From the NCBI GenBank assembly GCA_003563255.1, contig PWSL01000387.1, forward strand, positions 1 to 15,901: 15,901 nucleotides of DNA, given 5' to 3'. The position numbers and the translations under genes were made by a program. The notes under the pieces were generated by a model. It made no database searches. It saw nothing but the letters and a program-made list of their open reading frames with translations, and was not told the origin of the DNA. How positions within the stretch are numbered: the first letter of the stretch is position 1; each line of letters starts with the position of its first letter. Positions 1 through 15,781 of the stretch are shown piece by piece. The DNA is from Desulfonatronospira sp. (lineage in GTDB: Bacteria; Desulfobacterota; Desulfovibrionia; Desulfovibrionales; Desulfonatronovibrionaceae).

Positions 1-116
1 CGCGGCGGGGGGAGCACCTGAGCTTAGTGTCCAAAAATGAAACAGTCCCAGTGCCAAGTGCTGAACCCCCGTCATGGCTCAAATTTTTCTTGTTTTTTGT
101 GACAGGGTTTCAGGAG

Positions 117-196
117 TAAGCCACTAAACAGATACCAAAAAATAAATTCCGGGAGAGCCAGTCCCCGTGCTTTCCTTAAAAGCGCTAACCAGATAC
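117..196. repeat. Two degraded ends of the GTATCTGTTTAG repeat family
   Basis: Two successive copies of the same repeat terminus are visible. The first, CACTAAACAGATAC, ends at 135. The second, AAAAGCGCTAACCAGATAC, ends at 196 and is preceded by GAGAGCCAGTCCCCGTGC (153-170). The second matches the right end of the complete element at 13456-13606 and, on the reverse strand, its left end. No matching left ends are obvious, so these look like fragments or solo ends left by repeated insertion. In the rest of 1-329 I see no supportable gene. Bases 1-116 contain only short interrupted frames and G-rich or T-rich stretches. Confidence 0.6.
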
Positions 197-238
197 TTTT
201 ATTGACTTTTTATTTTTTAATATTTGTTAAAACAGGTC

Positions 239-268
239 TTGACTTATGTATGCTTGTGCATGTTATAA
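239..268 (+). promoter_or_regulatory. Putative sigma70-type promoter of the hdrA-mvhDGA operon
   Basis: A -35-like TTGACT (239-244) and a -10-like TTATAA (263-268) are separated by 18 bases and lie about 60 bases before the hdrA start. The surrounding 197-329 stretch is AT-rich. No clear operator was recognised. The call rests only on matches to the consensus hexamers. Confidence 0.45.
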
Positions 269-329
269 GAAATCATAAAGCAAATGAGTATCATCGTAAA
301 TCATTATCAATTGGCAAAGGGGGTAAAGT

Positions 330-3300
330 ATGAGCGCGGAAAAAGTAGGCGCGGTCATGGTTGTCGGAGGAGGAATCGCCGGTATCCAGTCAGCCCTGGA
401 TCTGGCTGATGCCGGGTATTATGTCTATCTTTTGGAGAAGTCTTCCGGCATAGGCGGGGCCATGGCTCAGCTGGACAAGACTTTTCCAACCAACGATTGT
501 GCAATGTGAATTATTTCGCCAAAACTGGTCGAGTGCGGTCGGCACTTGAATATCGAGCTTTTGACCCTGGCCGAGGTGGAAGGAATCAGCGGCCGGGAAG
601 GTAATTTCAACGTCAAGGTGCGCCAGAAATCGCGCATTATTGACATGGATAAATGTATAGCCTGTAACCTGTGTGCGGAAAAATGCCCCAAGAAAGTTCC
701 GGACGAGTTCAATGAGGGGCTGGACAAGCGCAAGTCGGCATACATCAAGTACGGGCAGACCGTACCCCTTAAGTACGCCATTGAAAAGGAGACATGTATC
801 TTTTTTGTCAAGGGCGGCAACAAGGGCAAAAAAGGCAAGGGCAAATGCCGGGCCTGTGAAAAGTACTGTCCCACCGGGGCCATTGACCTGGACCAGGATT
901 TCCAGGACGAAATCAAGGAAATAAGCGTCGGTTCGGTCATTTTGACCCCGGGATTCAAGCCCTTTGACCCTTCCGCGTTTGATACCTATGCCTATACCCA
1001 GTTCAAGGACGTGGTCACCAGTATGGAGTATGAGAGGCTTCTCTCCTCCAACGGTCCGTGCATGGGACATCTCACCAGGCCTTCCGACGGCCAGGAGCCC
1101 AAAAAAATCGCCTGGCTGCAGTGCGTAGGCTCCAGAAACATCAATAAATGCGACAACGGTTACTGTTCCTCGGTCTGCTGCATGTACGCCATCAAACAGT
1201 CCATGGTAACGGCGGAACATACCACCGGGGATACGGACCAGGCCATTTTCTACATGGACATCCGTACCCACGGCAAGGAGTTCGACAAGTATTTTGAGCA
1301 GGCCAAAGAAAACGGTGTGCGATTTGTCCAGAGCCGCATTCACACAGTTTACCCCGGCCAGGACGGTTGCGGGGTAAAGGTGGAGTACTTCAATGACCAG
1401 ACCGGGGAGAGGGTCAAGGAGGAGTTCGACCTTTTGGTTCTGTCTGTGGGCCTGGAAAACTCCAAGAGTTCTGTTGACCTGGCAGAGGTGCTGGGAGTGG
1501 AGCTGGACAAGTATAAATTCGCGGAAAGTTCCAGCTTTGCCCCGTCAGCCACCAACGTCCCCGGCATTTATGCCAGCGGCTGCTATCAGGGGCCCAAGGA
1601 TATCCCCCAGTCGGTAACCGATGCTTCCTGCGCCGCTGCCTCGGCTTCCATATCCCTTAGCAGTCAGCGCGGAACCCTGACCCAGGAAAGGACATTCCCC
1701 CCGGAAAAAGAAGTGGCCGGAGAAGAGCCCAGGGTGGGCGTCTTTGTGTGCTCCTGCGGCATCAATATCGCAGGCACCATAGATGTCAACGAGCTGGTGG
1801 AATACTCCAAGTCTCTGCCCAACGTGGTCATGGTGGAAAACAATCTCTTTTCCTGCTCCCAGGATACCCAGGTCATGCTCAAGGACAAGATCCAGGAGCA
1901 CAATCTGAACCGGGTGGTGGTGGCGGCCTGTACTCCCAGGACCCACGAGCCTCTTTTCCGGGAGACCATGAAGGATGCCGGGCTTAATGAGTATCTGTTT
2001 GAAATGGCCAACATCCGCAACCAGAACAGCTGGGTGCACGGCAAGGAGCCTGAAAAGGCCCTGGACAAGGCCAGGGATCAGGTACGCATGGCGGTGGTCA
2101 AGGCATCCATGCTCCAGCCCCTGGAGCACCTCTCGGTGAACGTCAACCAGAGCGCCCTGGTTGTTGGAGGCGGTCTCTCTGGCATGGTCAGCGCCCTGGG
2201 ACTGGCGGACCAGGGATACGAGACCATCCTCCTGGAAAAGGCGGACAAGCTGGGCGGCAACGCCTGGAACCTGGCCTCCACCTGGCGCGGGGAACAGATA
2301 AAGCCCTACCTGGAAGATCTTATTTCCAGGGTAGAAAACCATTCCAGTATAAAAGTATATAAAAACGCCCAGCTCAAGACCAATAAGGGCGCTGTGGGCG
2401 ATTTTGTAAGTGAAATAGAAGTAAACGGCGAGAAAAAGGCCATAAAGTACGGCATAGCTGTCGTCTGCACCGGGGGCCAGGAACACAAACCCCAGGAATA
2501 CCTCTATGGCCAGGATGAGCGGGTTTTTACCCACCTGGAATTCGACCGGGAGATGTCCGAGCATGCACCAGCCCTGGACAAGGCCAAAGGGGCCGTGTTC
2601 ATTCAGTGCGTGGGCTCCCGCGAGCCGGACAGACCCTACTGCAGCCGGGTGTGCTGCACGCATACCATGCATTCGGCCATCAAGCTCAAAAAGGCCAACC
2701 CCAAAATGCCTGTATATGTTCTTTACCGGGATATCAGGACTTACGGTGCCCGGGAGGACCTGTACAAAGAGGCCCGGGAACTGGGGGTCGTCTTCATCCA
2801 GTACGATCTGGACAACAAGCCCAGAGTCAGCAAGGACGGGGACGACCTGGTGGTGATGGCCAGAGACCACATCCTGTACCGGGACGTGGAAATAAGGCCA
2901 AGCTATCTGGTACTGGCCTCGGCTGTTGTACCCACCGAACATAAGAACCTGGTGGAGCTTTATAAGTGCGGGCTCAACAGCGAGGGATTCCTGCAGGAGG
3001 CCCATGCCAAGTTAAGGCCTGTGGACATGAGCGTGGACGGCATGTTTCTGGCGGGACTGTGCCACTACCCCAAGCCTGTGGACGAGTGCATCGCCCAGGC
3101 CCAGGCCGCGGTTTCCAGGGCATCCACCATCCTGTCCAGATCAGTAATGCCCCTGGACTCCATTAAGTCCTTTGTTACGGAAAATTGTGACGGCTGCGCC
3201 ATATGCGTGGACACCTGCCCTTACGGGGCCATTGGTCTGACAGACTACGATGTGGAGGGTGTTCAGCACAAAAAAATCGAAACCAACAAGGCCCTGTGCA

Positions 3301-3410
3301 AGGGGTGCGGCATCTGCGAAGCCACCTGCCCCAAGCAGGGAGTGTTTGTGCACGGTTTTACCAATGAGCAGCTCAGGGCACAGGTACATGCTGCCCTGGA
3401 AAATGTCTAA
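330..3410 (+). CDS. hdrA: Selenocysteine-containing, double-length HdrA (heterodisulfide reductase subunit A-like flavoprotein)
   Basis: This cytoplasmic iron-sulfur flavoprotein is the bifurcating subunit of Hdr-type complexes. I start it at ATG 330, after GGGGGTAAAGT, and read through TGA 507-509 as Sec60, giving 1026 residues. Starting after the TGA would remove the first FAD-binding motif (GGGIAG near 13-18). Sec60 lies in [18 protein letters not shown], where HdrA proteins carry a conserved cysteine. The order is: FAD domain 1; ferredoxin cysteines 109/112/115/119 and 173/176/180; QCVGSR plus a CC motif near 264-290; a second HdrA unit beginning GVFVCSCG (470-477); FAD motif GGGLSG from 613; a second QCVGSR near 759; and two C-terminal 4Fe-4S motifs (C953/956/959/963 and C990/993/996/1000). 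Methanogen HdrA is about 650 residues, so this is a tandem or fused form. mvhD follows 20 bases later behind AAGGAGAT. The HdrA assignment is firm; the high-potential acceptor is unknown. Confidence 0.93.
507..548 (+). promoter_or_regulatory. Sec codon and putative SECIS of hdrA
   Basis: TGA 507-509 is followed, 27 bases after the codon, by loop GGUCG closed by a 7-bp stem: CGAGUGC (530-536) with GCACUUG (542-548), including one G-U pair. The GGUC loop resembles the SelB-binding loop of the E. coli fdhF SECIS. A shorter alternative, ACU-GGUCG-AGU (524-534), lies nearer the TGA at 14 bases before the stem, but has only 3 pairs. The reading frame stays open and conserved on both sides of the TGA. 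Confidence 0.8.
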
Positions 3411-3430
3411 AAAACCAAGGAGATATAACG

Positions 3431-3865
3431 ATGGCTGAACATAAAGAACCTGTCATTGTGGGATTTCTCTGCAACTGGTGCGCTTATGCCGGAGCTGACC
3501 TGGCCGGCGTGTCCAGGCTGCAGTATCCGCCCAACATGCGTGCCATCAGGGTCATGTGCTCCGGGATGGTTCATCCCAACCTGGTGGTGGAGGCCCTGGA
3601 AAAAGGCGCCGACGGCGTCCTGGTCCTGGGCTGACACCTTGGTGAATGTCATTACCTGGATGGTAATCACAAGGCATACGCCAGGGCGCAAGCCATAAAG
3701 CTGGTACTGGAAGACCTGGACATCGACCCCGAGAGGTTCAGGCTGGACTGGGTATCTTCAGCAGAGGCACCAAGGTTCGCCAAGGTGGTCAATGAATTTA
3801 CCGAACAAATCAAGTCCCTGGGGCCCAATCCCCTGCGGGTCAGCAAGGAAACCCAGAGCGCCTAG
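3431..3865 (+). CDS. mvhD: Selenoprotein MvhD (hydrogenase-Hdr electron transfer subunit)
   Basis: A small [2Fe-2S] protein that carries electrons from the hydrogenase MvhAG to HdrA. Reading TGA 3632-3634 as Sec68 gives 144 residues, the usual size of the family. A plain reading would stop at 67 residues. The sequence shows C14 and C17 (GFLCNWCAYAGADLAG), C43 (VMCSGM) and GUHLGECHY at 67-75. The family motif is GCHxGxCHY, so Sec replaces the first cysteine and C73 remains; a selenium version is known in methanogen VhuD. The tail (from YLDGN to the TAG at 3863) continues as MvhD proteins do. The start is ATG 3431 with AAGGAGAT six bases upstream. It lies between hdrA and the hydrogenase small-subunit gene, the expected context. 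The frame and family are clear; Sec insertion itself is inferred. Confidence 0.95.
3632..3674 (+). promoter_or_regulatory. Sec codon and putative SECIS of mvhD
   Basis: TGA 3632-3634 is followed by a perfect 6-bp stem, AUUACC (3651-3656) with GGUAAU (3662-3667), around loop UGGAU (3657-3661). The loop begins 22 bases after the TGA. A possible outer stem pairs CCUUG (3637-3641) with CAAGG (3670-3674). Loop and distance are identical to those of the mvhA SECIS. Confidence 0.8.
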
Positions 3866-3904
3866 CGCTCCAGGTCCTTTCATTTCCTTAATGGAGGTAT
3901 TTAT

Positions 3905-4843
3905 ATGACCAAGGTAACAGTAGCCGAAGAATGGCTGAATGCCTGTGCAGGCTGTGAAATAGCCATATTGAACGTTGGCGATGTCCTGGTGGACCTACTG
4001 GTGAACAACCTGGATTTTGTGCATATCCCGGTCATCCTGGACAAGAAGTATTTCGGGCAGACCGGTGAGGAAGAACATCTGAGCATCCCCGAGGCGGTGG
4101 TGGGCATTGTCTCCGGCGGGGTCAGAAACGAGGAGCACAAGGAAGTCCTGCTGGAGATGCGCAAGAAATGCCAGATCCTTATAGCCCTGGGAACCTGCGC
4201 CACCGACGGCGGCATTCCGGCCATGATCAACATGTATTCCGACGAGGAGTTGAAACAGTTCTATTACAAGGATTCGCTCACAACCGATCCAGCGGAATAT
4301 CCAACCGAGCATATTCCACCGCTTCTGGACCAGTGCTATGCCCTGGATGAACTGGTCAAGGTGGACCTGTACCTGCCAGGATGCCCGCCGCATCCGGACT
4401 GGATCGCCGGGGCCGTCCTGGCCCTTCTGGAAGGCAAGACCGAATACCGGATGCCGGAAAAGTCGGTCTGTGATTCCTGTCCCACCATAAGAGAAAGCAA
4501 GAAGGGACTTGCAGACATAAAGCGCATGCTGTCCGCCCCGGAATTCGACCCGGAAAAGCCCCTGGACGAGATGCGCTGTCTGCTGGAGCAGGGTTTTCTG
4601 TGCCTGGGTCCTGTCACTGGAGTTGGCTGTGGCGGACATAAGGGGGCACCCAGGTGTATTTCCGCCCGGGTTCCCTGCCGGGGTTGTTACGGTCCTGTCA
4701 GAAAAGGTGCCAAGCCTCTGGTGGATTACATGGGGGCCCTGGCTTCTGTGGGGTTTGATCCAAACAAGATGCCCGACCGCCGGGGATACCTGGCCCGTTT
4801 TTCCGGGGCCCACGGCACACTCAAAAGACCCGTTAGGAGGTAG
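3905..4843 (+). CDS. mvhG: Group 3 [NiFe(Se)] hydrogenase small subunit (F420-non-reducing type)
   Basis: The iron-sulfur subunit relays electrons from the Ni-Fe centre of MvhA toward MvhD. It has 312 residues. The proximal-cluster cysteines are visible: C14 and C17 in NACAGCEIAI, C98 in LGTCATDGG and C160 in LPGCPPHPDW. A second group of cysteines in the C-terminal third (CDSCPTIRE; EQGFLCLGPVTGVGCGG; CISARVPCRGCYGP) would bind further 4Fe-4S clusters. There is no N-terminal Tat signal, so the enzyme is cytoplasmic, as expected for group 3. The start ATG 3905 has ATGGAGGT six bases upstream. The stop is separated from mvhA by only 2 bases, so the two are translationally close. No in-frame TGA occurs here, unlike in its three operon partners. 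Confidence 0.94.
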   Translation: MTKVTVAEEWLNACAGCEIAILNVGDVLVDLLVNNLDFVHIPVILDKKYFGQTGEEEHLSIPEAVVGIVSGGVRNEEHKEVLLEMRKKCQILIALGTCATDGGIPAMINMYSDEELKQFYYKDSLTTDPAEYPTEHIPPLLDQCYALDELVKVDLYLPGCPPHPDWIAGAVLALLEGKTEYRMPEKSVCDSCPTIRESKKGLADIKRMLSAPEFDPEKPLDEMRCLLEQGFLCLGPVTGVGCGGHKGAPRCISARVPCRGCYGPVRKGAKPLVDYMGALASVGFDPNKMPDRRGYLARFSGAHGTLKRPVRR

Positions 4844-4845
4844 AC

Positions 4846-6294
4846 ATGGGTAAGACACTGAATATAGCTCCCATAACCCGCATCGAGGGGCATGCCAGCG
4901 TGGCTGTGCACCTGGACGATACCGGAAATGTTTCCGATGCCAGGCTGCATGTGCTCTCCCTGCGCGGGTTTGAACAATTCGTACTGGGCCGTCCCGTAGA
5001 GGAGGTGTCCAGGATAGTAACCCGCATCTGCGGGATCTGCCCCTGGCAGCACCACCTGGCTGCCAATAAGGCTGCGGATGAGTGCCTGGGACTGGAACTG
5101 CCCCCCACGGGCAGAAAGCTCAGGGAACTTTGCCAGATGATGGCCTATATCCCGGACAAGATCCTGCATTTCTATTTTCTGGCTGCTCCGGATTTCGTCC
5201 TGGGCCCGGATGCGGATTATTCCGTGCGCAACGTGGTGGGCATCGTAGGCGCCAACCCGGAACTGGCCAAAAAGGTAGTGCACATGCGCTACAAGGCCCA
5301 GATGATGCTGGAAAAGTTCGCCGGCAAGGTCATTCATCCTATTGCCGGTGTGGTGGGTGGTTTTTCCAAACCCCTCAAGGAAGAAGAGCGAAAAGAGATC
5401 CTGGAAGGCATCCAGGAACTCAAGGAGTTCAGCCTGTTCACCATCAAGTTCGCCCGGGAAGAGGTTTTTCCCAAGTACCTGGATGCAGTCAAGGTCCTGG
5501 GAGTGTTCCCTTCCGGCTACCTGGGTACTGTTCGTCCTTCGGACGGCGCTCTGGAACTCTATGACGGAGAACTAAGGCTCATGGACCAGAATGGAGAATA
5601 TGACCAGTTCAAGTACTCAGAATACATGAACTACATTGGCGAACATACCGAACCATGGTCCTATCTCAAGTTCCCCTACGCCAAGAAATGGGGTGCTCTC
5701 AAGCTGGACGAGAACGATCCGGTGGGCGTATACAGGGCCAACACCCTGGCCCGGATCAATGTCTGCGACAGGATGGCGACTCCCCTGGCCCAGGAGGAAC
5801 TGGACATTTTCCGCAAGGAATTCGGGCGTCCCACGCACCTGACCCTCTTATACCACTGGGCCAGGCTCATCGAGCTGGTTCAGGCCAGTGAGCGGGCCGA
5901 GGAGCTTTTAAACGACCCTGAAATCACCGGCCGGGAAATCCGTTGCCAGGATATCCAGCCCAGGGCCGGTGAAGGGGTTGGATGTGTCGAGGCGGCCAGG
6001 GGTACACTGCTCCATCACTTCAAGACGGATGAGAACGGCTTTGTGACCATGGCTAACATGATAGTGGGCACCACCCACAACAATGCCCCCATGAACCTCT
6101 CGGTGCGGCAGGCGGCCAAGGCGGTGATCAAGGACGGCAAGTACGATCAGGGTCTTTTGAACCGGGTGGAGATGGCCATACGCGCCTACGACCCGTGAAT
6201 GAGCTGTGCCACTCACCGCCTGGATGGCGGCGTAAACGTAGAGCTCTCAGTTATTGATTCCAGCGGCAACGTCCTGGAGACCATGGGCAAATAA
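4846..6294 (+). CDS. mvhA: Selenocysteine-containing [NiFeSe] hydrogenase large subunit (MvhA/VhuA type)
   Basis: The catalytic subunit cleaves H2 at a Ni-Fe centre. The first metal motif, RICGICPWQH, supplies C62 and C65. The second is DPUMSCATH near the C-terminus: TGA 6196-6198 is Sec451, followed by C454 and H457, matching the DP(C/U)xxCxxH motif. Stopping at TGA would leave 450 residues with half a nickel site. Reading through to the TAA at 6292 gives 482 residues with a 25-residue tail after H457, the usual position of endopeptidase cleavage. In Methanococcus Vhu the selenocysteine motif sits on a separate tiny subunit (VhuU); here the large subunit is undivided. The start ATG 4846 is four bases after AGGAGGT, which overlaps the end of mvhG. 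The family and motif are firm; cleavage is inferred from the nearby maturation protease gene. Confidence 0.95.
6196..6230 (+). promoter_or_regulatory. Sec codon and putative SECIS of mvhA
   Basis: TGA 6196-6198 is followed by a perfect 5-bp GC stem, CCGCC (6216-6220) with GGCGG (6226-6230), closing loop UGGAU (6221-6225). The loop starts 22 bases after the TGA. The stem-loop lies in codons for the C-terminal tail predicted to be removed during maturation. Confidence 0.8.
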
Positions 6295-6365
6295 TTCAGC
6301 ATTTGTCAGTTCCCTGAAAATTATGCTGCGGTATTGTTAGACAGGAGCTGACAAATAGTTTATAA

Positions 6366-6405
6366 AAGGCCGTCTTCACCCTGGTGAAGGCGGCTTAATT
6401 TTTTT
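6366..6405 (+). terminator. Intrinsic terminator of the hdrA-mvhDGA operon
   Basis: An 11-bp stem, GCCGTCTTCAC (6369-6379) with GTGAAGGCGGC (6384-6394) and one G-U pair, has a CCTG loop and is followed by TTAA and a run of seven T (6399-6405). It lies 71 bases after the mvhA stop and 15 bases before the maturation protease gene, so it should separate or attenuate transcription between them. Confidence 0.88.
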
Positions 6406-6420
6406 GTTTGCGGGGGAGAA

Positions 6421-6921
6421 ATGGACTGGTCCATGATGTTTGATTCCAGAGTGGTGATTTTCGGATGCGGCAACACCTTGTACGGCGATGACGGCCTGGG
6501 GCCGCTGGTTGTCAAGGCAATTCAGGAACGAGGCGGACTTGGTGAAGACGTGGCCTGTATTGACGCGGGCACTTCCATAAGGCCCCTTCTTTTTGATCTG
6601 ATACTCAGTCCCAAGCACCCGGAAAGAGTGATAATAATCGACAGCACCACCGACCATGACCTGGCCCCCGGCCAAGTAAAAGAAATTGATATCACAGGGG
6701 TGGATCCCAAGAAGATCGCCGATTTTTCCATGCACCAGTTTCCAACCACCAACCTTTTAAAAGAGCTGCAGGAAACCACGGAAATCAGGCTCAATATCAT
6801 AGTGGTCCGGGCTGCACATATCCCGGAAAAAATGCAGGAGGGCTTAAGCCCCGAGGTGCAAAAGGCCCTGGATGAGGTGCAGGAGAAGGTATTGCAACTG
6901 GTCAACCGTAAAGTTCAATAG
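6421..6921 (+). CDS. Hydrogenase maturation endopeptidase (HycI/HyaD/FrhD-like protease)
   Basis: A 166-residue cytoplasmic protease that removes the C-terminal tail of a hydrogenase large subunit once nickel is in place. The N-terminal family motif is present: FGCGNTLYGDDGLGP (residues 14-28). By family comparison, the nickel-sensing ligands would be D24, D74 (in RVIIIDSTTD) and H105 (in DFSMHQFP). Its position directly after mvhA suggests MvhA as substrate, with cleavage expected after H457. The start is uncertain: ATG 6421 lies only two bases after GGGGGAG, while ATG 6433 or 6436 would have a longer spacing; the conserved domain begins near residue 11 in any case. It sits just downstream of a strong terminator, so it may be transcribed by read-through or from a weak promoter that I cannot identify. 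Confidence 0.88.
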   Translation: MDWSMMFDSRVVIFGCGNTLYGDDGLGPLVVKAIQERGGLGEDVACIDAGTSIRPLLFDLILSPKHPERVIIIDSTTDHDLAPGQVKEIDITGVDPKKIADFSMHQFPTTNLLKELQETTEIRLNIIVVRAAHIPEKMQEGLSPEVQKALDEVQEKVLQLVNRKVQ

Positions 6922-6942
6922 CACCACAGCGAAACTTATGAC

Positions 6943-7037
6943 TGACCTCCGGGGACAGGCAACCGGCCCCTTCTTTATAAAATCCGTCAGTTTTCTGTCA
7001 GAAATATTAAGTGCGGGGGGCCAGTCCCCGGAGGTCA
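6943..7037. repeat. Inverted repeat with 14-bp perfect arms
   Basis: TGACCTCCGGGGAC (6943-6956) is the exact reverse complement of GTCCCCGGAGGTCA (7024-7037). After one mismatch the pairing continues for three more bases on each side. The inside is about 60 bases of mostly AT-rich sequence. The arms carry the GGGGAC core shared with the other intergenic repeats. It lies directly after the maturation protease gene and could fold in RNA, but has no T run. Region 6922-7304 has no supportable gene; it holds this hairpin, the element at 7045-7222, and about 80 bases of AT-rich leader before lepA. Confidence 0.75.
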
Positions 7038-7044
7038 ATAATAG

Positions 7045-7222
7045 GTAACCATTCAGGGAGTCCTCGGTGTTGATTACTGGCACCAGGCCCTGGGGACTGT
7101 CCCCTGTTATGTACTAACTGTGCAGGGTCACACAACATCGCGTCTGTATTTTTTGTATTTGTGCAGAAAAGGTGTCGCGGGGACTGGCTCCGGGCCGATT
7201 GCGGCATCCCCTGAATGGTTAC
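7045..7222. repeat. 178-bp element with 14-bp terminal inverted repeats (GTAACCATTCAGGG family)
   Basis: GTAACCATTCAGGG (7045-7058) and CCCTGAATGGTTAC (7209-7222) are exact reverse complements. The right half (7143-7222), read on the reverse strand, matches 15697-15776 over about 80 bases with a few substitutions and one single-base indel. It contains a 13-base near-palindrome, GGGGACTGTCCCC (7092-7104), and GGGGACTGGCTC near 7179-7190. There is no open frame of note. The short AATAAT just outside both ends (7037-7042 and 7225-7230) could be a remnant of a target duplication but is weak. Confidence 0.75.
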
Positions 7223-7304
7223 AAAATAATTTTTGCGGTAGTATTGACCCCCTGCCCAGAATAAATAATCAACCTCGTGTTCCTCCAGGACTTATTTAGG
7301 CTAA

Positions 7305-9107
7305 ATGGTAAAACAGGAAAATATCCGTAATTTCAGCATTATCGCACATATAGATCACGGCAAGTCCACCCTGGCCGACAGGATACTGGAACTTACCGGT
7401 CTTTTGACTGACCGGGACAAAAAAGAGCAGTACCTGGACCGGCTGGACCTGGAGCGGGAACGCGGAATCACCATAAAGGCGCAGACTGTGCGCATTCCAT
7501 ACCGGGCCAGAGACGGCCGGGATTATATCCTGAACCTGATAGACACTCCGGGCCACGTGGATTTCTCTTACGAGGTGTCCAGGAGCCTGGCGGCCTGCGA
7601 TGGGGCACTGCTGGTGGTTGATGCCACCCAGGGGGTGGAGGCCCAGACTCTGGCCAATGTCTACCTGGCCCTGGATCACGACCTGGAAATAATCCCGGTT
7701 CTGAACAAGATAGATCTGCCAAGTGCTGACCCCCTGCTCATAGCCGAAGAAATCGAAGAGATAGTGGGGCTGGACTGTTCCGACCTGTCCCTGGTCAGCG
7801 CCAAGACCGGGGATGGGGTATCGGATCTCATGGAAAAGATAGTTCAATTGACTCCGCCTCCCAGAGGAAGCAATGATGCTCCTCTCAAAGCCCTTATCTT
7901 TGATTCCTGGTATGATTCTTACCTGGGGGTGATGGTTCTGTTTCGTATTCTGGACGGATCCATTCAGCAGGGCCAGGAAATAATGATGTTTTCCAACAGG
8001 AAGAGATTTGAAGTAGCCAGGCTGGGCATTTTTTCTCCTGGACCCAGGGATACTGACTGCCTGTACACCGGGGAGGTGGGTTTTCTTTGCGCGGGTATCA
8101 AGGACCTGAAGGAGGCCCGGGTGGGGGATACCATTACCAACCCTGCACGCCCTGCTCTCAGCCCTTTCCCGGGCTTCAAGAAGGTGCAGCCCATGGTCTT
8201 CTGTGGGTTGTACCCGGTGGAATCAGAGGATTACGAAGGGCTGAAGAATGCCTTGGAGAGGTTGCAGCTGAATGATGCTGCTCTGGAATTCGAGGCCGAG
8301 ACGTCGCAGGCCCTGGGGTTTGGTTTCAGGTGCGGCTTTCTGGGGCTTCTGCATATGGATGTCATCCAGGAGAGGCTGGAGCGCGAGTTCCAGGTAAGCC
8401 TCATTGCCACTGCTCCCTCGGTGGTATATAAGGTACTCAGGTTGGACGGCCGGTTGCTGGAAGTGGACAACCCGGCCAACCTGCCACCGGTGCAGGAAAT
8501 ACTGGAAGTTCTTGAGCCTTACGTGCGCATGGAGATCCACGTACCCAACGAATTTGTTGGCAACGTGTTGAGTCTTTGTGAGGAAAAGCGCGGCCGGCAG
8601 AAGGATATGCGCTACCTCTCCTCCACCCGGGTGATCATCACTTATGAGATACCATTTGCAGAGATCGTCTTTGATTTTTTTGACCGCTTAAAATCCCTTA
8701 CCAGGGGCTATGCCTCCCTGGACTACGAGGTTATGGATTTTCGCCGGGCTGACCTGGTCAAGATGGATATACTCATAAACCAGGAGCCCGTGGATGCCAT
8801 GTCTGTCATTGTGCACCGGGAAAAGGCCTATCACAAGGGCCGTTCCCTGGCCTTGAAGCTTAAAAGGGTCATACCCAGGCAGCTTTTCGAGGTGATTATC
8901 CAGGCTACCATAGGCAACAAGGTTATTGCCAGGGAAAGAACCCCGCCCATGCGCAAAAACGTCACCGCCAAGTGTTACGGGGGAGACATAACCCGCAAGA
9001 GAAAACTTCTGGAAAAGCAGAAGGAAGGCAAAAGGCGCATGAAAAAGATGGGCAGCGTGGAGATTCCCCAGGAGGCTTTTCTGGCAGCCCTGAGTTCTGA
9101 TGATTAA
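7305..9107 (+). CDS. lepA: Elongation factor 4 (LepA, ribosome back-translocase GTPase)
   Basis: A 600-residue translational GTPase that acts on stalled or mispositioned ribosomes. The G-domain motifs are all visible: AHIDHGKST (14-22), RGITIKAQT effector region, DTPGH (80-84) and NKID (134-137). The EF-G-like domains follow, and the C-terminus has the LepA-specific [20 protein letters not shown] stretch and ends at the usual length. The start ATG 7305 gives a normal N-terminus ([17 protein letters not shown]); the upstream ribosome site is weak (AGGA near 7287-7290 or TAGG near 7297-7300). lepB follows 73 bases downstream; lepA-lepB adjacency is common in bacteria and suggests cotranscription. 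Nothing unusual was seen in the coding sequence. Confidence 0.98.
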
Positions 9108-9180
9108 TAAGTGATTGCCGCCTGGACAAAATGTGCAGGCATAAAAAAATATCAACAACAACCTTACAGGACGGAAATAT

Positions 9181-9786
9181 ATGAATCCCAGATGGCACAA
9201 GCTATTGAAAGAGTATGCAGAAGCCCTGATCATAGCCCTCATTCTGGCAATATTTATCCGGACATTCGTGGTACAGGCCTTTAAGATTCCTTCAGGTTCC
9301 ATGCTTCCCACCCTGGAGATAGGCGACCACCTGCTGGTGACCAAGTTCAGCTACGGAATACAGATGCCTTTCATGGACAGATATATATTCGAATTCGACG
9401 GTCCGGAATTTCAGGACATAGTGGTGTTCGAGTTTCCTGAGAATCCTTCCAAGGATTTTATCAAGAGAGTCATAGGTACACCCGGGGATGAGATCTATAT
9501 TGATGATAAGGAGTTGTATATCAACGGGGAAAAAGTCCAGGAGGAATATGTACAGTATGCTGATCAGCGGGTGGTGGACAGCCGCGACACTTTCGGGCCC
9601 AAGGTGGTGCCAGAGGGTAAATATTTTGTTCTGGGTGACAACCGGGACCAGTCCTATGACGCCAGGTTCTGGGATGATCATTTCGTGCAAAGGGAAAAAA
9701 TTATCGGCAGAGCCTGGAGGATTTACTGGTCCTGGGAAGGTTTTTCTAATATCCGCTGGGACAGGATCGGAAGCAGGATACAGTGA
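9181..9786 (+). CDS. lepB: Signal peptidase I
   Basis: A 201-residue inner-membrane serine protease that removes signal peptides from exported proteins. One N-terminal membrane helix (residues about 13-33) is followed by the catalytic serine S40 in PSGSMLPTL. The general-base lysine is K95 in FIKRVIGTPGD, and the C-terminal family box GDNRDQSYDARFW is present. It has a single anchor and a compact size, unlike the two-anchor E. coli enzyme. ATG 9181 is preceded by CAGGACGGA. It is probably cotranscribed with lepA, and the comM start lies 18 bases after its stop. Confidence 0.97.
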   Translation: MNPRWHKLLKEYAEALIIALILAIFIRTFVVQAFKIPSGSMLPTLEIGDHLLVTKFSYGIQMPFMDRYIFEFDGPEFQDIVVFEFPENPSKDFIKRVIGTPGDEIYIDDKELYINGEKVQEEYVQYADQRVVDSRDTFGPKVVPEGKYFVLGDNRDQSYDARFWDDHFVQREKIIGRAWRIYWSWEGFSNIRWDRIGSRIQ

Positions 9787-9804
9787 TTTTCAACGGCAGG
9801 CCCA

Positions 9805-11346
9805 ATGTTCGCCAAGATTACCACTGCAGCACTCATAGGCATTGACGCCATCAGAATCGAACTGGAAGTGGATTATTCCAGGGCCGGTATGCCGGCGTTT
9901 ACGCTGGTAGGCCTGGCCGAAGGAGCAGTCAAGGAAAGCAAGGAACGGGTCTTTTCAGCTCTGAAAAACAGTGGATATAAGCTACCTCCCGCCAGGATAA
10001 CAATCAATCTGGCACCTGCTGACGTGCGCAAGGAAGGCAGCAGCTACGACCTGCCCCTGGCCCTGGGGCTGTTGGCCGCATCCGGCACTATTCCAGTGGA
10101 GAGTATACAGAACATTTTCATGTCCGGGGAGCTTTCTCTGACGGGAGAACTGAAGGCCATCAACGGCTCCCTGCCTCTGACCCTCAAAGCCAGAAACGAT
10201 AATGCCGGAGCTGTGATGGTACCAAAAATAAACGCTCAAGAGGCGGCTGTTGTCCAGGAGATGCCTGTTTACGGCCTGGATAACCTGGCCCAGGCAGTGC
10301 GCTTTTTGAACGGTGAAATCAACCTGGCACCTGTACGCTTTGATATCGACACTCTGTGGCAGCGTGGATCTGCGTTTTTTGTGGACTTCTCTGAAGTCAA
10401 GGGACAGGACAATGCCAAGCGGGCGATTGAAATAGCTGCTGCAGGCGCACACAATCTGCTTTTCATTGGGCCTCCGGGCAGCGGCAAGACAATGCTGGCC
10501 CAGAGAATTCCCACAGTCCTGCCTCGATTGAGTTTTGAAGAGGCTCTGGAAGTGACAAAGATATACAGTGTGTCCGGCCAACTGGATCCGGATCAGGCCA
10601 TGATAGTGCAGCGGGCCTTCAGAAGTCCCCATCATACCATATCTGATGCAGGGCTCATCGGCGGGGGGCATTACCCGCGTCCGGGGGAAGTCTCTCTGGC
10701 CCACAGGGGGGTACTTTTCCTTGACGAACTGCCGGAGTTTAAAAAGCATGTCCTGGAGGTCCTGCGCCAGCCCCTGGAGGATGGGGAGGTGACCATCTCC
10801 CGGGCGGCCATGTCCCTGCGTTACCCGGCTGATTTCATGCTGGTGGCGGCCATGAACCCCTGTCCATGCGGTTTCCTTACTCATGACCAGCACCCTTGCA
10901 TATGCACCCCTACCCAGATCCAGCGCTATCGCTACCGCATATCCGGACCCCTTCTGGACCGAATCGACCTGCATATTGAAGTTCCGGCAGTGCCTTATGA
11001 AGAACTCAAAAAGGCCAGAAGCTCTATGGACTCAAAGGAGATGAGTACAAACATAAACAGAGCCAGACAGATCCAGGAAAAACGCTACCAGAAATTGCCC
11101 TTTCTTACCAACAGCCAGCTTTCGGGGAAATGGCTGTCAGAGTTCTGCTGTCTGGGTCAGGAAGAGCATGCCTTTCTGGAGACGGCTGTTCAGCGTCTGG
11201 CCCTTTCCGCCAGGGCACATACCAGGATTTTGCGTCTGGCCAGGACCATTGCAGACCTGGAAGGTGTGGAGCGTATCAACGCTGCTCACCTGGGAGAGGC
11301 CATCAACTATCGCAGCCTGGACCGCCAGGAGCAGATGGGCCTGTAA
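9805..11346 (+). CDS. comM: ComM/YifB family AAA+ ATPase (Mg-chelatase-like)
   Basis: A 513-residue AAA+ protein. E. coli/Haemophilus relatives (YifB, ComM) are helicases that help branch migration during natural transformation; the role here is inferred by family only. The N-terminal domain (about 1-170) has the YifB signature PAFTLVGLAEGAVKESKERV. Walker A is GPPGSGKT at 222-229 and Walker B is VLFLDE at 303-308. A cysteine-rich loop AAMNPCPCGF...HPCIC follows, then GPLLDRIDLHIEVP, and a C-terminal Mg-chelatase domain (HTRILRLARTIADLEG). The length is normal. The start ATG 9805 lies 18 bases after lepB with only a weak ribosome site (CAGG), so translational coupling to lepB is plausible. 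Confidence 0.95.
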   Translation: MFAKITTAALIGIDAIRIELEVDYSRAGMPAFTLVGLAEGAVKESKERVFSALKNSGYKLPPARITINLAPADVRKEGSSYDLPLALGLLAASGTIPVESIQNIFMSGELSLTGELKAINGSLPLTLKARNDNAGAVMVPKINAQEAAVVQEMPVYGLDNLAQAVRFLNGEINLAPVRFDIDTLWQRGSAFFVDFSEVKGQDNAKRAIEIAAAGAHNLLFIGPPGSGKTMLAQRIPTVLPRLSFEEALEVTKIYSVSGQLDPDQAMIVQRAFRSPHHTISDAGLIGGGHYPRPGEVSLAHRGVLFLDELPEFKKHVLEVLRQPLEDGEVTISRAAMSLRYPADFMLVAAMNPCPCGFLTHDQHPCICTPTQIQRYRYRISGPLLDRIDLHIEVPAVPYEELKKARSSMDSKEMSTNINRARQIQEKRYQKLPFLTNSQLSGKWLSEFCCLGQEEHAFLETAVQRLALSARAHTRILRLARTIADLEGVERINAAHLGEAINYRSLDRQEQMGL

Positions 11347-11461
11347 CCCGGGGCTATTTTATTGGGGTCTTGATAGTCAAGGGTTATCGTTTAACACTCT
11401 GGATTTATTGCATTTATTTAAACTGCAGTATCACTACAGCGACACTTTATTTGAACTCGAA

Positions 11462-11570
11462 GGGGACTGGCACCCCCGCACTTATTTTTCCAAGAAATCG
11501 TAGACCATTTTAAAAATAAGTGCGGGGGAGAGCCAGCTCCCATGCCACATGTAAAGCCCTAAACAGATAC
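11462..11570. repeat. Palindromic repeat copy with a 17-bp perfect hairpin
   Basis: CCCCCGCACTTATTTTT (11473-11489) is the exact reverse complement of AAAAATAAGTGCGGGGG (11512-11528), separated by 22 bases. Outside it lie GGGGACTGGC (11462-11471) and GAGCCAGCTCCC (11529-11540). The right end, CATGCCACATGTAAAGCCC followed by TAAACAGATAC, matches the reverse complement of the left end of the elements at 13456 and 15782. A degraded left end may be GTTATCGTTTAACACTCT at 11383-11400. It fills most of the gap between comM and the flavoprotein gene. Confidence 0.75.
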
Positions 11571-11601
11571 AATATTTTTTTAACTCTCAAGGGGGGAATA
11601 T

Positions 11602-12177
11602 ATGCATGTAGTGGCTTTTAACGGCAGCGCCCGCAGGGATGGCAATACTGCAGGGCTTATCAAAATGGTGTTAAGCTCCATTGAAAAAGAAAATATTACA
11701 ACAGAACATGTCCAACTGGGCGGTAAACATATCCAGGGCTGTATTGCCTGCGTCAAATGTTTCAAGAATAAAGACAGGCATTGTTCTGAAAAAGACGACA
11801 TGCTCAATGAGTGTATAGATAAAATGCTGGCTGCTGACGGAATCATTCTAGGTTCGCCCACTTACTTTGCCAATGTCAGTACCAACATCAAGTCTCTGAT
11901 AGACCGTGCGGGTCTGGTGGCCAAGGCCAATGAAGACATGTTCGCCCGCAAGGTGGGTGCGGCCGTTGTTGCTGTGCGCAGATCAGGAGCAATTCACGTC
12001 TTTAATTCCATAAACCATTTCTATTTGATAAATCAAATGATTATACCGGGATCCAGCTATTGGAATATAGGTCATGGTCTGCACCCGGGAGAAGTGGAAA
12101 AAGACGAGGAGGGCAGACAGACTATGGAAAACCTGGGAAAAAATATGGCCTGGCTGTTGCAGAAAGTTGGGGCATAG
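11602..12177 (+). CDS. Flavodoxin-fold NAD(P)H-dependent oxidoreductase / iron-sulfur flavoprotein-like
   Basis: A 191-residue soluble protein of the NADPH-dependent FMN reductase group. The FMN phosphate loop is GSARRDGNTAG (8-18) and a second flavin-binding segment is GSPTYFANVSTNIKSLIDR. Between them lies GCIACVKCFKNKDRHC, a CX2CX2CX7C arrangement resembling the compact 4Fe-4S motif of archaeal iron-sulfur flavoproteins. It may therefore carry both FMN and a cluster and reduce small oxidised compounds or serve in electron transfer; the substrate is unknown. ATG 11602 has a strong AAGGGGGG seven bases upstream. It stands alone between an upstream repeat and the next gene, so it is probably its own transcription unit. 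Confidence 0.87.
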   Translation: MHVVAFNGSARRDGNTAGLIKMVLSSIEKENITTEHVQLGGKHIQGCIACVKCFKNKDRHCSEKDDMLNECIDKMLAADGIILGSPTYFANVSTNIKSLIDRAGLVAKANEDMFARKVGAAVVAVRRSGAIHVFNSINHFYLINQMIIPGSSYWNIGHGLHPGEVEKDEEGRQTMENLGKNMAWLLQKVGA

Positions 12178-12283
12178 CAATTTTTTGATTCGCCTGCATG
12201 AGTCGGTTTTGTGGGCGCAGAGGACAGAAGGCTTATGACTGGTATGTGTATCAGGGAGTAAATCACTGAAATGATTTTTAGTC

Positions 12284-12299
12284 CGGGCTTTTCAGCCCG
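12284..12299 (+). other. Small GC hairpin before the AI-2E transporter gene
   Basis: CGGGCT (12284-12289) pairs with AGCCCG (12294-12299) around loop TTTC. No T run follows, so it is not a typical terminator; it lies just before the start codon and could affect translation or be incidental. Confidence 0.3.
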
Positions 12300-12316
12300 A
12301 GTTCAGGTTGGAAGGG

Positions 12317-13414
12317 ATGCACCTTATAGCAGAATGGTTTAAACGGCATTTCGGAAATCAGCAGGTTGTTATACTTGTGGGTCTCCTGCTGTTTTTTTTC
12401 GGGGTTGTATATTTCTTCGGTCAAATGCTTCTGCCTTTTTTTGCAGGTCTGGTGATAGCCTATCTCCTGGACGGCATGGTCAAGATAATGACCAGGTATA
12501 GCATTCCCAGAATGTTGGCGGTTATCATTGTCTTTCTGGGCTTTCTTCTGCTTATGTTTTTCGGCTTTTTCTGGCTGGTGCCCATGCTTATCAAGCAGGT
12601 GACTCAACTGGTCCAGCAGTTGCCCTCGATGATATCCGAGGCCCAGATGCACCTGTTGCAACTACCAGAAAAATACCCGCACCTTGTCTCCGAAGAGCAG
12701 ATTCAGGAAGTGATTTCAGCCCTGCGTGCGGAAGTGGCCCAGCTCGGTCAGCAGATTCTGAGCATTTCCGTGGCCTCTGTGGTTGGCCTTATAACTATTC
12801 TGGTATACCTCATTATTGTTCCTTTGCTTGTGTTTTTCTTTCTCAAGGATAAAGACCTGCTGCTGGCCTGGTTTACCAGGTTCCTTCCCCGGGAACGCTC
12901 CCTGGCGGTCCAGGTCTGGGAGGATGTAAATATTCAAATCTCCAACTATGTCCGGGGCAAGACCTGGGAGATTATAATAGTTTGGGGAGTAACTTTTATT
13001 GTGTTTTCATTTCTGGGGCTGCAATATTCAGTCCTCTTAAGTCTTGCTGTGGGACTGTCAGTGCTGATACCCTATATAGGGGCAGCAGTAGTGACTGTCC
13101 CTATAGCCCTGGTAGCCTATTTTCAGTGGGGATTCGGTTCCGAGTTTGTCTGGGTACTTGTGGCTTACGCCATTATCCAGGCCATTGACGGTAATGTCCT
13201 GGCTCCTTTACTGCTTGGAGAGGTTGTCAATATTCACCCTGTGGGAATTGTTGCTGCAATTTTTATCTTTGGCGGTCTGTGGGGTTTTTGGGGGGTATTT
13301 TTCGCAATCCCCCTGGCCACCCTGGTGCAGGCTGTGATTCGGGCCTGGCCCAGAGTAGATTATTTGAGTAAAAAGCCGGCAGTCGATCCTCCGCCGGATT
13401 CACAGGAAGTCTGA
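12317..13414 (+). CDS. AI-2E/PerM family membrane transporter (formerly UPF0118)
   Basis: A 365-residue polytopic inner-membrane protein. Two hydrophobic segments at the start (VVILVGLLLFFFGVVYFF; LPFFAGLVIAYLLDG) and a third (AVIIVFLGFLLLMFFGFFW) are followed by a long polar, helical loop (about 100-150, EEQIQEVISALRAEVAQLGQQ), then about five further segments. Family signatures are VPLLVFFFLKDKD, GLSVLIPYIGA and the late AIDGNVLAPLLLG/HPVGIVAAIFIFGGLWGFWG. Members are proposed to export autoinducer-2, Na+/H+ or other solutes; the substrate cannot be told here. ATG 12317 is chosen; TTG 12308 in the same frame would add three residues. Neither has ideal Shine-Dalgarno spacing (CAGG 12304-12307 is nine bases before ATG). 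Confidence 0.92.
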   Translation: MHLIAEWFKRHFGNQQVVILVGLLLFFFGVVYFFGQMLLPFFAGLVIAYLLDGMVKIMTRYSIPRMLAVIIVFLGFLLLMFFGFFWLVPMLIKQVTQLVQQLPSMISEAQMHLLQLPEKYPHLVSEEQIQEVISALRAEVAQLGQQILSISVASVVGLITILVYLIIVPLLVFFFLKDKDLLLAWFTRFLPRERSLAVQVWEDVNIQISNYVRGKTWEIIIVWGVTFIVFSFLGLQYSVLLSLAVGLSVLIPYIGAAVVTVPIALVAYFQWGFGSEFVWVLVAYAIIQAIDGNVLAPLLLGEVVNIHPVGIVAAIFIFGGLWGFWGVFFAIPLATLVQAVIRAWPRVDYLSKKPAVDPPPDSQEV

Positions 13415-13447
13415 TTGCGATTATATTTATCCCTACAGTGAATCTTT

Positions 13448-13615
13448 GTTTTCGCGTATCTGTTTAGCGCTTTGCATGTGGCATGGGGGCTGGCTCTTCC
13501 GGGACCCACTTGTAGCAAAAAATGAGATATTTTAAGCACAAAATGATGCTCAAGTGGGTCCCGGAGTGCCTGTCCCCTGCTTTCCTTAAAAGCGCTAAAC
13601 TGTTACGTTTTCGCG
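13448..13615. mobile_element. Complete MITE/REPIN-like element with flanking direct repeat
   Basis: The element spans 13456-13606 (151 bp). The left end GTATCTGTTTAGCGCTTT and the reverse complement of the right end, GTAACAGTTTAGCGCTTT, match at 16 of 18 bases. Inside is a perfect 14-bp inverted repeat, CCGGGACCCACTTG (13499-13512) and CAAGTGGGTCCCGG (13551-13564). GTTTTCGC occurs directly outside both ends (13448-13455 and 13607-13614); the match extends to 9 bases if the following G is counted. This looks like a target-site duplication. It codes for nothing and must be moved by an enzyme encoded elsewhere. Confidence 0.75.
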
Positions 13616-13683
13616 AACAGATGCGATTACAGCAATCGAATGTGTAATGCGTGGTCTTGACCAACTTTATGGAGAATCATTAT

Positions 13684-14220
13684 ATGATACTTCGAGGTAC
13701 TACTATTCTGGCTGTTAAAAAAAACGGTCAGACGGCTATGGCCGGCGACGGACAGGTGACCATGGGTCAGGCCGTTGTAATGAAACATACAGCCAGAAAG
13801 GTGCGGCGCATGTACAAGGACAGTGTTCTGGCTGGTTTTGCAGGGGCTACTGCGGACGCTTTCACCCTGTTTGAGCGTTTTGAAGCCAAGCTTGAGGAAT
13901 ACCGGGGCAACCTTCTTCGTGCCAGCGTGGAACTGGCCAAGGAATGGCGCATGGATAAATACCTTAGGCGTTTGGAAGCCCTGCTGGTTGTGGCTGACAA
14001 GAACAATGTACTCATTATCAGTGGAACTGGTGATGTTATCGAACCCGACGACGGCATAGCTGCCATCGGTTCAGGCGGACCATACGCTCTGGCAGCTTCC
14101 AGGGCGCTTATTTCAAATACAGACCTGAGCGCAAGCGATATAGTAACCCAGGGCATGCAGATAGCTTCCCAGATCTGTGTTTATACCAACAACAACATCA
14201 TTACGGAAACAATTGATTAA
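13684..14220 (+). CDS. hslV: ATP-dependent protease HslV, peptidase subunit
   Basis: The proteasome-like threonine protease of the HslVU (ClpQY) complex, a cytoplasmic double ring capped by HslU. It has 178 residues. The start [11 protein letters not shown] puts a short propeptide before the catalytic threonine, T6, which becomes the mature N-terminus. [38 protein letters not shown] and [16 protein letters not shown] are family-conserved. I choose ATG 13684 because GGAG (13671-13674) lies nine bases upstream; a GTG at 13651 in the same frame would add 11 residues that the family lacks. hslU follows after 15 bases, so they form an operon. Heat-shock control is common for this pair, but I did not identify a heat-shock promoter. 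Confidence 0.97.
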
Positions 14221-14235
14221 CAAGGAAAGCATTTG

Positions 14236-15654
14236 ATGAGCACCACACTGACTCCCAGAGAGATAGTATCTGAACTGGACAAGTATATAATCGGCCAGCA
14301 GGATGCCAAGAACATGGTGGCCATTGCCCTGCGCAACAGATGGCGCAGGCAGCAGCTGGATCCGGAGATGCGCGAGGAGATAGCCCCGAAAAATATCATT
14401 ATGATCGGCCCCACAGGGGTGGGTAAGACCGAAGTGGCCAGACGTCTGGCCAAGCTTGCCGGGTCGCCCTTTTTTAAAGTGGAGGCATCCAAGTTTACCG
14501 AGGTGGGTTACGTGGGCCGGGATGTGGAATCAATGATCCGGGACCTGATGGAGATCGGGGTCAACCTGGTCCGTTCCGAGGAGAGGGAAAAAGTGCAGGC
14601 CAAGGCCGAGACCAATGCCGAAGAGAGGCTTTTGGACCTTTTGCTGCCTCCAAAAAAGGCACCTGAGGGCCAGCAGGCAGGCCAGGGTTATCAGGGACAG
14701 CAGCAGGTTTCTTTTCAACTTGAGACCCCGGGCAGGCAGGAGAGAGGTCCAGGCGCAGGGGAACAGGCCCGGGCAGATGAAAACAGGACCAGGGAAAAAC
14801 TGCGCAAGCTGTGGCGTGAGGGACGTCTGGACGATCGCACTGTCGAGGTGGAGGTGCAGACCGGCTCCAATGTGGAAATCATGTCCATGCCCGGTATGGA
14901 AGACATGGAGATGCAGTTTCGGGACATGTTCAGCCGGGTATTTCCCAAGAAAAAGAAGACCAAGAAGGTCAAAGTCAAGAACGCTTACGAAATTCTGTTG
15001 CAGGAGGAAACCGAGCGTTTGGTGGACATGGACAAGGTCACCGAAATAGCCAAGGAACGCGTGGAACAAAGCGGGATCATATTTATCGACGAGATTGACA
15101 AGGTGTGCACCAGTGAAAAATCTTCCAGGGCGGATGTGTCCAGGGAAGGTGTGCAGCGCGATCTCCTGCCGGTGGTGGAGGGGTGCGTGGTCAACACCAA
15201 GTACGGCATGGTCAGAAGCGATCATATACTGTTTATTGCAGCGGGAGCATTTCACTATGCAAAGCCTTCAGACCTGGTTCCGGAGTTGCAGGGTAGATTC
15301 CCCTTGCGGGTGGAATTGTCGGCCCTGACCGGGGAAGACTTTTACCGCATCCTTACAGAGCCTCAGAATGCCCTTACCAGGCAGTACAGGGCTCTTCTGG
15401 AAACAGAGGGAATAAGCCTGGAGTTTTCTGATGAAGCACTTGTGGAGTTGTCTTCTTTTGCCCAGAAGGTCAATGACGAGACAGAGAATATCGGGGCCAG
15501 ACGTCTTTACACCATCATGGAAAAGTTGTTGCAGGACCTTTCTTTCAAGGCTCCGGAACTAGCAGGGCAAAAGATCAGCGTGGACAAGGAATACGTCCAG
15601 GAGCAGCTCAAAGATGTGCAGGAAGACCGGGATTTGACCCGCTATATTCTTTAG
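14236..15654 (+). CDS. hslU: HslU, ATPase subunit of the HslVU protease
   Basis: A 472-residue AAA+ unfoldase that feeds proteins to HslV. It begins with the usual [21 protein letters not shown]. Walker A is GPTGVGKT (58-65), followed by the pore loop motif GYVGRDVES, and Walker B is IIFIDE (281-286). The intermediate domain (about 110-260) includes a Gln/Gly-rich stretch [15 protein letters not shown], a typical variable part. [13 protein letters not shown], the sensor-2 region [13 protein letters not shown], and the docking tail DLTRYIL at the extreme C-terminus are intact; the tail is what activates HslV. ATG 14236 follows AAGGAAAG; a TTG one codon earlier is unlikely. It is cotranscribed with hslV. 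Confidence 0.98.
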
Positions 15655-15696
15655 AACCATCAGCATTTTTCGGGGTGTAGACTGGAAGCCCGGACA

Positions 15697-15779: not shown

Positions 15780-15781
15780 CG

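Follow-up and report, generated by a model that had tools for sequence, protein, structure and literature searches.

A four-gene hydrogenase-HdrA operon of Desulfonatronospira with three probable selenocysteines, one of them in a fused double HdrA

Can three subunits of one bacterial hydrogenase-heterodisulfide reductase (Hdr) system each carry a selenocysteine (Sec, written U in protein sequences), and if they do, what would the selenium do there and where did the operon come from? The question is raised by a stretch of DNA from Desulfonatronospira sp. (contig PWSL01000387.1 of assembly GCA_003563255.1, positions 1 to 15,901), the whole of which we analysed and here call the window. It holds four genes, all on the forward strand and in the order that was described for bacterial Sec operons (PMC1794560; published work is cited here for individual passages): hdrA (330-3410, 1026 amino acids, a fused double HdrA of "type II"), mvhD (3431-3865, 144 amino acids, the delta subunit, of the FlpD family), mvhG (3905-4843, 312 amino acids, the hydrogenase small subunit) and mvhA (4846-6294, 482 amino acids, the [NiFeSe] large subunit). 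The assignments come from translation and alignment to PDB 5odc for hdrA, from translation and alignment to a solved relative for mvhD, from alignment for mvhG, and from translation and alignment for mvhA, with Pfam used for all four and NCBIfam for hdrA and mvhA. Matches to the Pfam FlpD, [NiFe(Se)] large subunit and small subunit families passed their cut-offs; the NCBIfam HdrA2, VhuD, VhuG, VhuA and VhuU models also matched, all below cut-offs that are tuned to archaea. MvhA has both the N-terminal RICGIC and the C-terminal DPU/CxxC motifs of the [NiFeSe] group 3 Mvh/Vhu hydrogenases.

With TGA read as a sense codon, exactly one inner TGA is found in hdrA (codon 60, 507-509), in mvhD (codon 68, 3632-3634) and in mvhA (codon 451, 6196-6198). 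MvhG, which has no Sec, contains none. The same is true of eight further window genes that were checked, and inner TAA or TAG codons occur in none of these 12 genes. An earlier note on this DNA had reported one in-frame TGA each at HdrA 60, MvhD 68 and MvhA 451, and both coordinates and codons proved exact. All three align to cysteines present in solved relatives. The TGAs might nonetheless be stop codons, arising from sequencing errors or broken genes whose true state is TGC or TGT. TGA does serve as an ordinary stop in this genome, since it terminates two of the 12 window genes (9181-9786 and 12308-13414), and the hdrA match in one related locus (L032) breaks off with two stops.

Relatives of the operon bear directly on this point. 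We retrieved 62 related loci by a scan with the window's own MvhA, the closest being Desulfonatronospira B1Sed10_27m with 95% identity in MvhA, a match that by itself makes the Desulfonatronovibrionaceae the probable family of the host; with the window these make 63 rows. The aligned codon is TGA, TGC or TGT in all 45 MvhD matches and all 60 MvhA matches (L074, L077 and L080 stop before the mvhA codon), which together with the cysteines of solved relatives bears out the earlier note's view that the TGAs stand at conserved cysteine positions. For HdrA the same holds in 33 of 50 matches (TGA in 23, TGC or TGT in 10); the remaining 17, with gaps or other codons, presumably align to a different flavin domain. 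In 26 of the 63 rows every one of the three sites was readable: 18, including the window, have Sec at all three, five have cysteine at all three, and three are mixed, with cysteine in MvhD only (L079 and L088) or in HdrA only (L039), so the three sites can switch singly. Six operons from six further genomes of the same genus or family have TGA at the HdrA site (6/6), the MvhD site (6/6) and the MvhA site (4/4, two contigs stopping before this codon), although some of these may duplicate assemblies among the 62 loci. More broadly, an MvhD-like match (E <=1e-20) was found in 139 of 150 genomes drawn from the same order, and all seven genomes of the same genus, our own included, have a close MvhD-like match with one inner TGA, the site itself having been checked in two of the other six. 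The recurrence of TGA at these three positions in 17 other loci and in the operons of the six further, possibly overlapping, genomes, the conserved sequence on both sides of the TGA, and downstream hairpins that track it make stop codons a barely credible explanation, and sequencing error behind the three TGAs very unlikely.

The hairpins themselves resemble bacterial Sec insertion sequence (SECIS) elements, and the earlier note had proposed a search for these at the three sites. One lies at a set spacing downstream of each TGA on the forward strand: TCGAGTGC-GGTCG-GCACTTGA in hdrA (529-549, with 27 nt between TGA and loop), ATTACC-TGGAT-GGTAAT in mvhD (3651-3667, 22 nt) and CCGCC-TGGAT-GGCGG in mvhA (6216-6230, 22 nt). 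The mvhD and mvhA hairpins thus have identical loop letters and identical spacing, despite belonging to unrelated proteins. In the relatives the hairpins come and go with the TGA. For mvhD, all 25 TGA rows show the stem (null expectation 1.29) versus three of 20 Cys rows; the mvhA stem occurs in 30 of 31 TGA rows (5.33) versus none of 29 Cys rows, and the inner 6-bp stem of hdrA in 16 of 23 TGA rows (1.93) versus none of the seven Cys rows kept. The null consisted of random synonymous codons for the same proteins, and the observed counts were never reached in 2000 draws; the rows are related, hence not independent. The Cys counts leave out HdrA rows L043, L048 and L050, which align without the CxxC/U motif, and include L063 and L090 twice each for mvhD and L090 twice for hdrA. 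Among TGA rows, pair 5 of the mvhA stem varies on both sides (CG in 27 of 31, TA in four), and pairs 1-6 of the mvhD stem are invariant, including at silent positions that vary in Cys rows.

Hairpin energy was tried as a SECIS test and rejected, the three sites ranking 12, 17 and 46 among 92 Cys and TGA codons; it is hairpin position and conservation, not energy, that single these sites out. Rfam at its gathering thresholds gave no match within the window. Searched with the mvhD/mvhA hairpin pattern, the same genome yields 20 matches, both known sites among them, versus seven in a reversed control. A SECIS search program had also been applied to the genes treated in PMC1794560. By comparison rather than chemistry, each hairpin would let SelB and Sec-tRNA insert selenocysteine at its TGA.

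Two further observations concern mvhD. In L051, a Phycisphaerae metagenome-assembled genome (MAG), the mvhD codon is TGT, yet a complete hairpin, CATTACCT-TGA-AGGTAATG, follows it; this is possibly a SECIS remnant after a Sec-to-Cys change, or else chance. Three genomes of the same order (G013, G023 and G047) have an MvhD paralogue with two in-frame TGAs (L173:5719-6135, L174:1808-2224 and L175:1758-2150), at window MvhD positions 17 (CTWU, that is, CxxU) and 68, and by eye a possible hairpin follows each (CTGACC..GGTCAG after one, ATTACC or GTTACC..GGTAAT or GGTAAC after the other). Several Sec residues in FrhD/VhuD are mentioned for archaea (PMC13188914).

Whether the host can make and use Sec was another check that the earlier note had called for. 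The genome assembly (3.5 Mb in 532 contigs, 99% complete) contains selA (537 bits), selB (338.3), selC, the tRNA-Sec (80.6), and selD (391.9), all above family cut-offs. The selB match spans positions 1-358 of 581, the gene running off its contig end, and the selD match itself contains a TGA. This weighs on another reading of the open frames, in which an altered genetic code or a suppressor would make TGA encode a different residue: an open frame alone is indeed silent on the residue inserted, but TGA ends other genes here, the four sel genes are present, the alternatives to TGA in MvhD and MvhA are TGC and TGT only, and SECIS-like hairpins follow the sites, so that we give this reading next to no weight. 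On these grounds hdrA, mvhD and mvhA very probably encode selenoproteins with bacterial SECIS elements. An inner TGA in a FlpD-like match on contig C58 was considered as another Sec candidate and rejected; it is that gene's own stop codon.

What would the selenium do? In MvhA, the DPUMSCATH segment around U451 aligns with DPCLSCATH of PDB 5odc, whose cysteine at this position is the nickel ligand in this family; this single chain covers two of the archaeal models, VhuA on residues 2-429 and VhuU on 434-460 (both below cut-off). In MvhD, GUHLGEC around U68 aligns with GCHIGDC of a solved relative, the cysteine in question being, we assume, a ligand of the [2Fe-2S] cluster. HdrA U60 aligns without gaps to residue 197 of HdrA in PDB 5odc (query residue 10 corresponding to chain residue 147). 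There, Cys197 of one HdrA serves as a ligand of its partner's N-terminal Fe-S cluster, which electrons pass when they leave the flavin via the inserted ferredoxin domain toward ferredoxin (PMC9012536). The earlier note had selenium at the nickel centre and at two steps of the path toward the bifurcating flavin. The nickel site (MvhA U451) and the inbound step (MvhD U68) fit; HdrA U60, being at the Cys197 position, does not, and would instead lie on the exit branch after the flavin (PMC9012536). Sec may ligate the clusters concerned.

The HdrA chain contains two thioredoxin-reductase/flavin adenine dinucleotide domains, as type II HdrA does, and HdrA of PDB 5odc aligns to its residues 10-391, 465-643 and 885-1020. 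The first half (about 8-450) has the inserted ferredoxin domain and U60 and lacks the N-terminal Fe-S domain, which sits in the second half, with C474, C476, C509 and C534 kept in all 22 full-length HdrA aligned (the window included, as in the HdrA counts that follow). Residue 60 is U or C, with C57 present, in 22/22. Residues 638-707, the part of the second half corresponding to the Cys197 region, contain a CxxC in none of the 22; they are without any cysteine in 17, including the window, and have a lone cysteine in five. HdrA being a fused double, U60 may bridge its two halves. Complementary halves also occur in HdrA fusions of anaerobic methanotrophic archaea (ANME), which were proposed to serve as their own partners (PMC9012536). 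Two residues, E356 and K409, have been tied to bifurcation (PMC12054007); their equivalents in the first half, E235 and K289, are kept in 22/22, and the lysine is mostly lost in the second half, which argues for one bifurcating flavin per chain.

U60 might instead pair with C57 of the CxxU motif as a redox selenenylsulfide and ligate no cluster. CxxU is a typical redox motif, and C57 accompanies residue 60 throughout the 22 chains; in the methanogen structure, though, the equivalent Cys197 is described as ligating a cluster (PMC9012536), and we consider the redox pair unlikely, if clearly less so than the alternatives to Sec itself.

Taking the subunits together, we think it highly probable that this bacterial four-gene operon encodes a selenium version of MvhADG-HdrA, the flavin-based electron-transfer complex that oxidises H2. 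By analogy with the path in methanogens (PMC6019823, PMC9012536), H2 would be oxidised at the Ni-Fe-Se centre of MvhA (U451) and electrons would pass to MvhG, from there to the [2Fe-2S] cluster of MvhD (U68), then to the C-terminal ferredoxin domain of HdrA and on to the flavin in the first half of that chain. The N-terminal Fe-S cluster of the second half would be completed by U60, contributed from the first half, one HdrA polypeptide thereby doing the job of the two HdrA copies of the methanogen dimer. Electrons would exit through this U60-completed cluster toward ferredoxin, and another branch would lead to a disulfide-type acceptor subunit encoded elsewhere. We infer this path, the ligation by selenium and the acceptor.

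Several observations weigh against the selenium MvhADG-HdrA complex as so described. Seven of the 23 Sec hdrA rows show a differently shaped possible hairpin, one mvhA TGA row (L039) lacks the stem, and three Cys rows of mvhD have it. Only 3/22 chains have K at the position of the bifurcation lysine of the second flavin (H781 in the window). No hdrB or hdrC, the remaining genes of an HdrABC-MvhAGD system, was found in the window. A motif search for a Cys-rich CCG-motif gene (GlpC/HdrB-like) found none in the window, which extends only 329 bases upstream of hdrA, and none in L032, L074 and L077, each with at least 4.9 kb upstream. Of the 31 other Sec loci examined, 13 have such a gene directly 5' of hdrA; among the rest, short contigs account for some of the misses (L082, L084 and L089, Sec loci with only the mvhA end, were left out of this search). 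An HdrB/HdrC-type partner is possibly encoded elsewhere; contig C445 of the same genome has a CCG-domain gene with an hdrC-like neighbour, the hdrB/hdrC labels being given by reading.

The genome holds further related loci. A second, Cys-type mvhD-mvhG-mvhA lies on contig C145, its MvhA being 44% identical and its MvhD 56% identical to those of the window. On contig C439 (L109) there is a further Hdr cluster with HdrA-like, FlpD and CCG matches free of inner stops; by reading, one of its HdrA has a GltD-like insert and another is doubled. Several Hdr systems coexist in this genome.

Where did the operon come from? Transfer from archaea has been proposed for the operon of Deltaproteobacteria (PMC1794560). 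The corresponding reading, in which the window operon was acquired recently from methanogens that use Sec, draws on the match in gene order and Sec families (PMC1794560) and on the window's four-gene order, apparently without GlpC, as in archaea. Trees of MvhG (75 and 76 rows) speak against it. The operon's group numbers 53 rows, with either Sec or Cys, and these all fall together (100/100) and apart from the archaeal rows, except for one titled Thermoplasmata, and the 23 MvhA-Cys rows form one group (100/100) nested among 27 Sec rows, so that the MvhA Sec/Cys state changes once in all on the MvhG tree. Trees constrained to unite the 27 bacterial Sec rows with 11 Methanococcales/Methanopyrus rows, leaving the bacterial Cys rows outside, were rejected by the approximately unbiased (AU) test (p-AU 6e-89), as were the same constraint with five rows of the VhuG-titled group (p-AU 1e-60) and with both archaeal sets (p-AU 8e-54). 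The groups tested were set after the first tree had been seen, and the trees are of MvhG only, built from matches spanning at least 240 query residues, with bacterial loci that had been retrieved through the MvhA of the window itself. The archaeal rows, 21 or 22 relatives of one methanogen chosen from the 120 listed of 2397 found, were taken without regard to the Sec or Cys state of their operons and include no Asgard rows. We judge a recent import very unlikely; an ancient transfer is compatible with these trees. MvhG of L063, an archaeal (Thermoplasmata) MAG, falls among bacterial Cys operons, through either transfer or a binning error.

A combined account can be put forward more tentatively, as one that may well fail in one of its parts. 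Selenium would stand at the nickel, at the [2Fe-2S] cluster and at a [4Fe-4S] cluster shared across the joint of the fused HdrA, where a single Sec acts as clasp; the bacterial Sec form would be old rather than recently derived from methanogens; and the sampled Cys operons would descend from one loss. RNA hairpins whose presence tracks that of the TGA give strong comparative support to the idea that bacteria put selenium in three subunits of one hydrogenase-Hdr complex. The role of selenium as an Fe-S ligand becomes testable, because nature supplies the operon in a Sec version, a Cys version and mixed states. The MvhG result, for its part, makes the published idea of a recent transfer from archaea questionable.

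Downstream of mvhA, pattern matching alone places at 6367-6396 (forward strand) a terminator-like stem that has 13 pairs and a T-rich tail, the one with most pairs among 16 such sites in 7320 bases (8.3 in shuffles). It is followed on the same strand by a gene for a HycI-family hydrogenase maturation protease (6421-6921, 166 amino acids; PF01750 and TIGR00072, both above cut-off), which, judging from its family, likely trims the MvhA C-terminus. The genes 3' of the protease we take to be lepA, lepB, comM, an FMN reductase gene (identified by family search), a gene for an AI-2E-type transporter, hslV and hslU. Three loci from same-genus or same-family genomes (L167, L169 and L170) share a neighbourhood that comprises, with labels given by reading, an opposite-strand lipoprotein-like gene, hdrA-mvhD-mvhG-mvhA, the protease, lepA, lepB and comM. 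A promoter scan gave three promoter-like sites, all on the reverse strand, the shuffle mean being higher (4.8). Intergenic GGGGACTGTCCCC-like inverted repeats occur at window positions 6934-7104 and about 150-167, and resemble repetitive extragenic palindromic (REP)-type elements.

How does the operon compare with known systems? The earlier note found three Sec in a bacterial operon striking, but the arrangement has been in print since 2006 (PMC1794560), a similar cluster followed in 2009 (PMC2702500), and a review of 2026 counts the operon among typical selenoprotein operons (PMC13188914). The window operon belongs to this already known type. An hdrA-frhD-frhG-frhA operon with Sec in HdrA, FrhD and FrhA was reported from Syntrophobacter fumaroxidans (three operons) and Desulfotalea psychrophila (PMC1794560), and the window shares with these the gene order and the placement of Sec in HdrA, FrhD/MvhD and FrhA/MvhA and not in FrhG/MvhG. 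In Desulfobacterium autotrophicum HRM2, likewise a bacterial host with sel genes, a Sec hydrogenase MvhA2DG is clustered with a Sec HdrA1 (PMC2702500), and Sec in HdrA and MvhD has been reported for Desulfococcus multivorans (PMC5109826). The GlpC-type fifth gene of the bacterial operons in PMC1794560 was not found here, with 329 bases of window upstream; the archaeal operon as presented in that paper is also without GlpC. That paper also mentions, for the bacterial operons, that hdrA can be doubled and has taken part in fusions, so the HdrA fusion itself is probably not new. The Sec of HdrA as the Cys197 clasp of a fused HdrA, and a test of transfer on MvhG, did not appear in the passages of the literature drawn on here, and may be published elsewhere.

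The Vhu and HdrA proteins of Methanococcus and Methanocaldococcus resemble those of the window in the order hdrA-D-G-A, in the three Sec families, and in Sec at HdrA CxxU and large-subunit UxxC (PMC13188914). They differ in that here VhuA and VhuU are one chain, the SECIS lies within the gene, HdrA is double, and MvhG is distant on the tree. The archaeal VhuD has a CxxU motif, with two Sec in the review's example (PMC13188914), whereas MvhD of the window has CNWC (Cys 14 and 17) and one Sec, at position 68, so that the earlier note's parallel with Methanococcus at three identical positions is less secure for MvhD. The coexistence of Sec and Cys forms in this genome recalls Vhu and Vhc of Methanococcus, though the two forms here are distant from each other. 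The HdrABC-MvhAGD complex of PDB 5odc (Methanothermococcus thermolithotrophicus) shares subunit families and aligned cysteines with the window operon, which differs from it in lacking hdrBC, in having Sec for Cys at three places and in joining a double HdrA in one chain. This double HdrA has two thioredoxin-reductase domains, like type II HdrA of methane-metabolising archaea (PMC12054007) and the HdrA3/4 fusions of ANME (PMC9012536). As in those fusions, the N-terminal domain and the Cys197 position are present in complementary halves, but in the window the halves stand in reverse order, the second bifurcation lysine is kept in few of the aligned chains (3/22), and Sec takes the place of Cys197.

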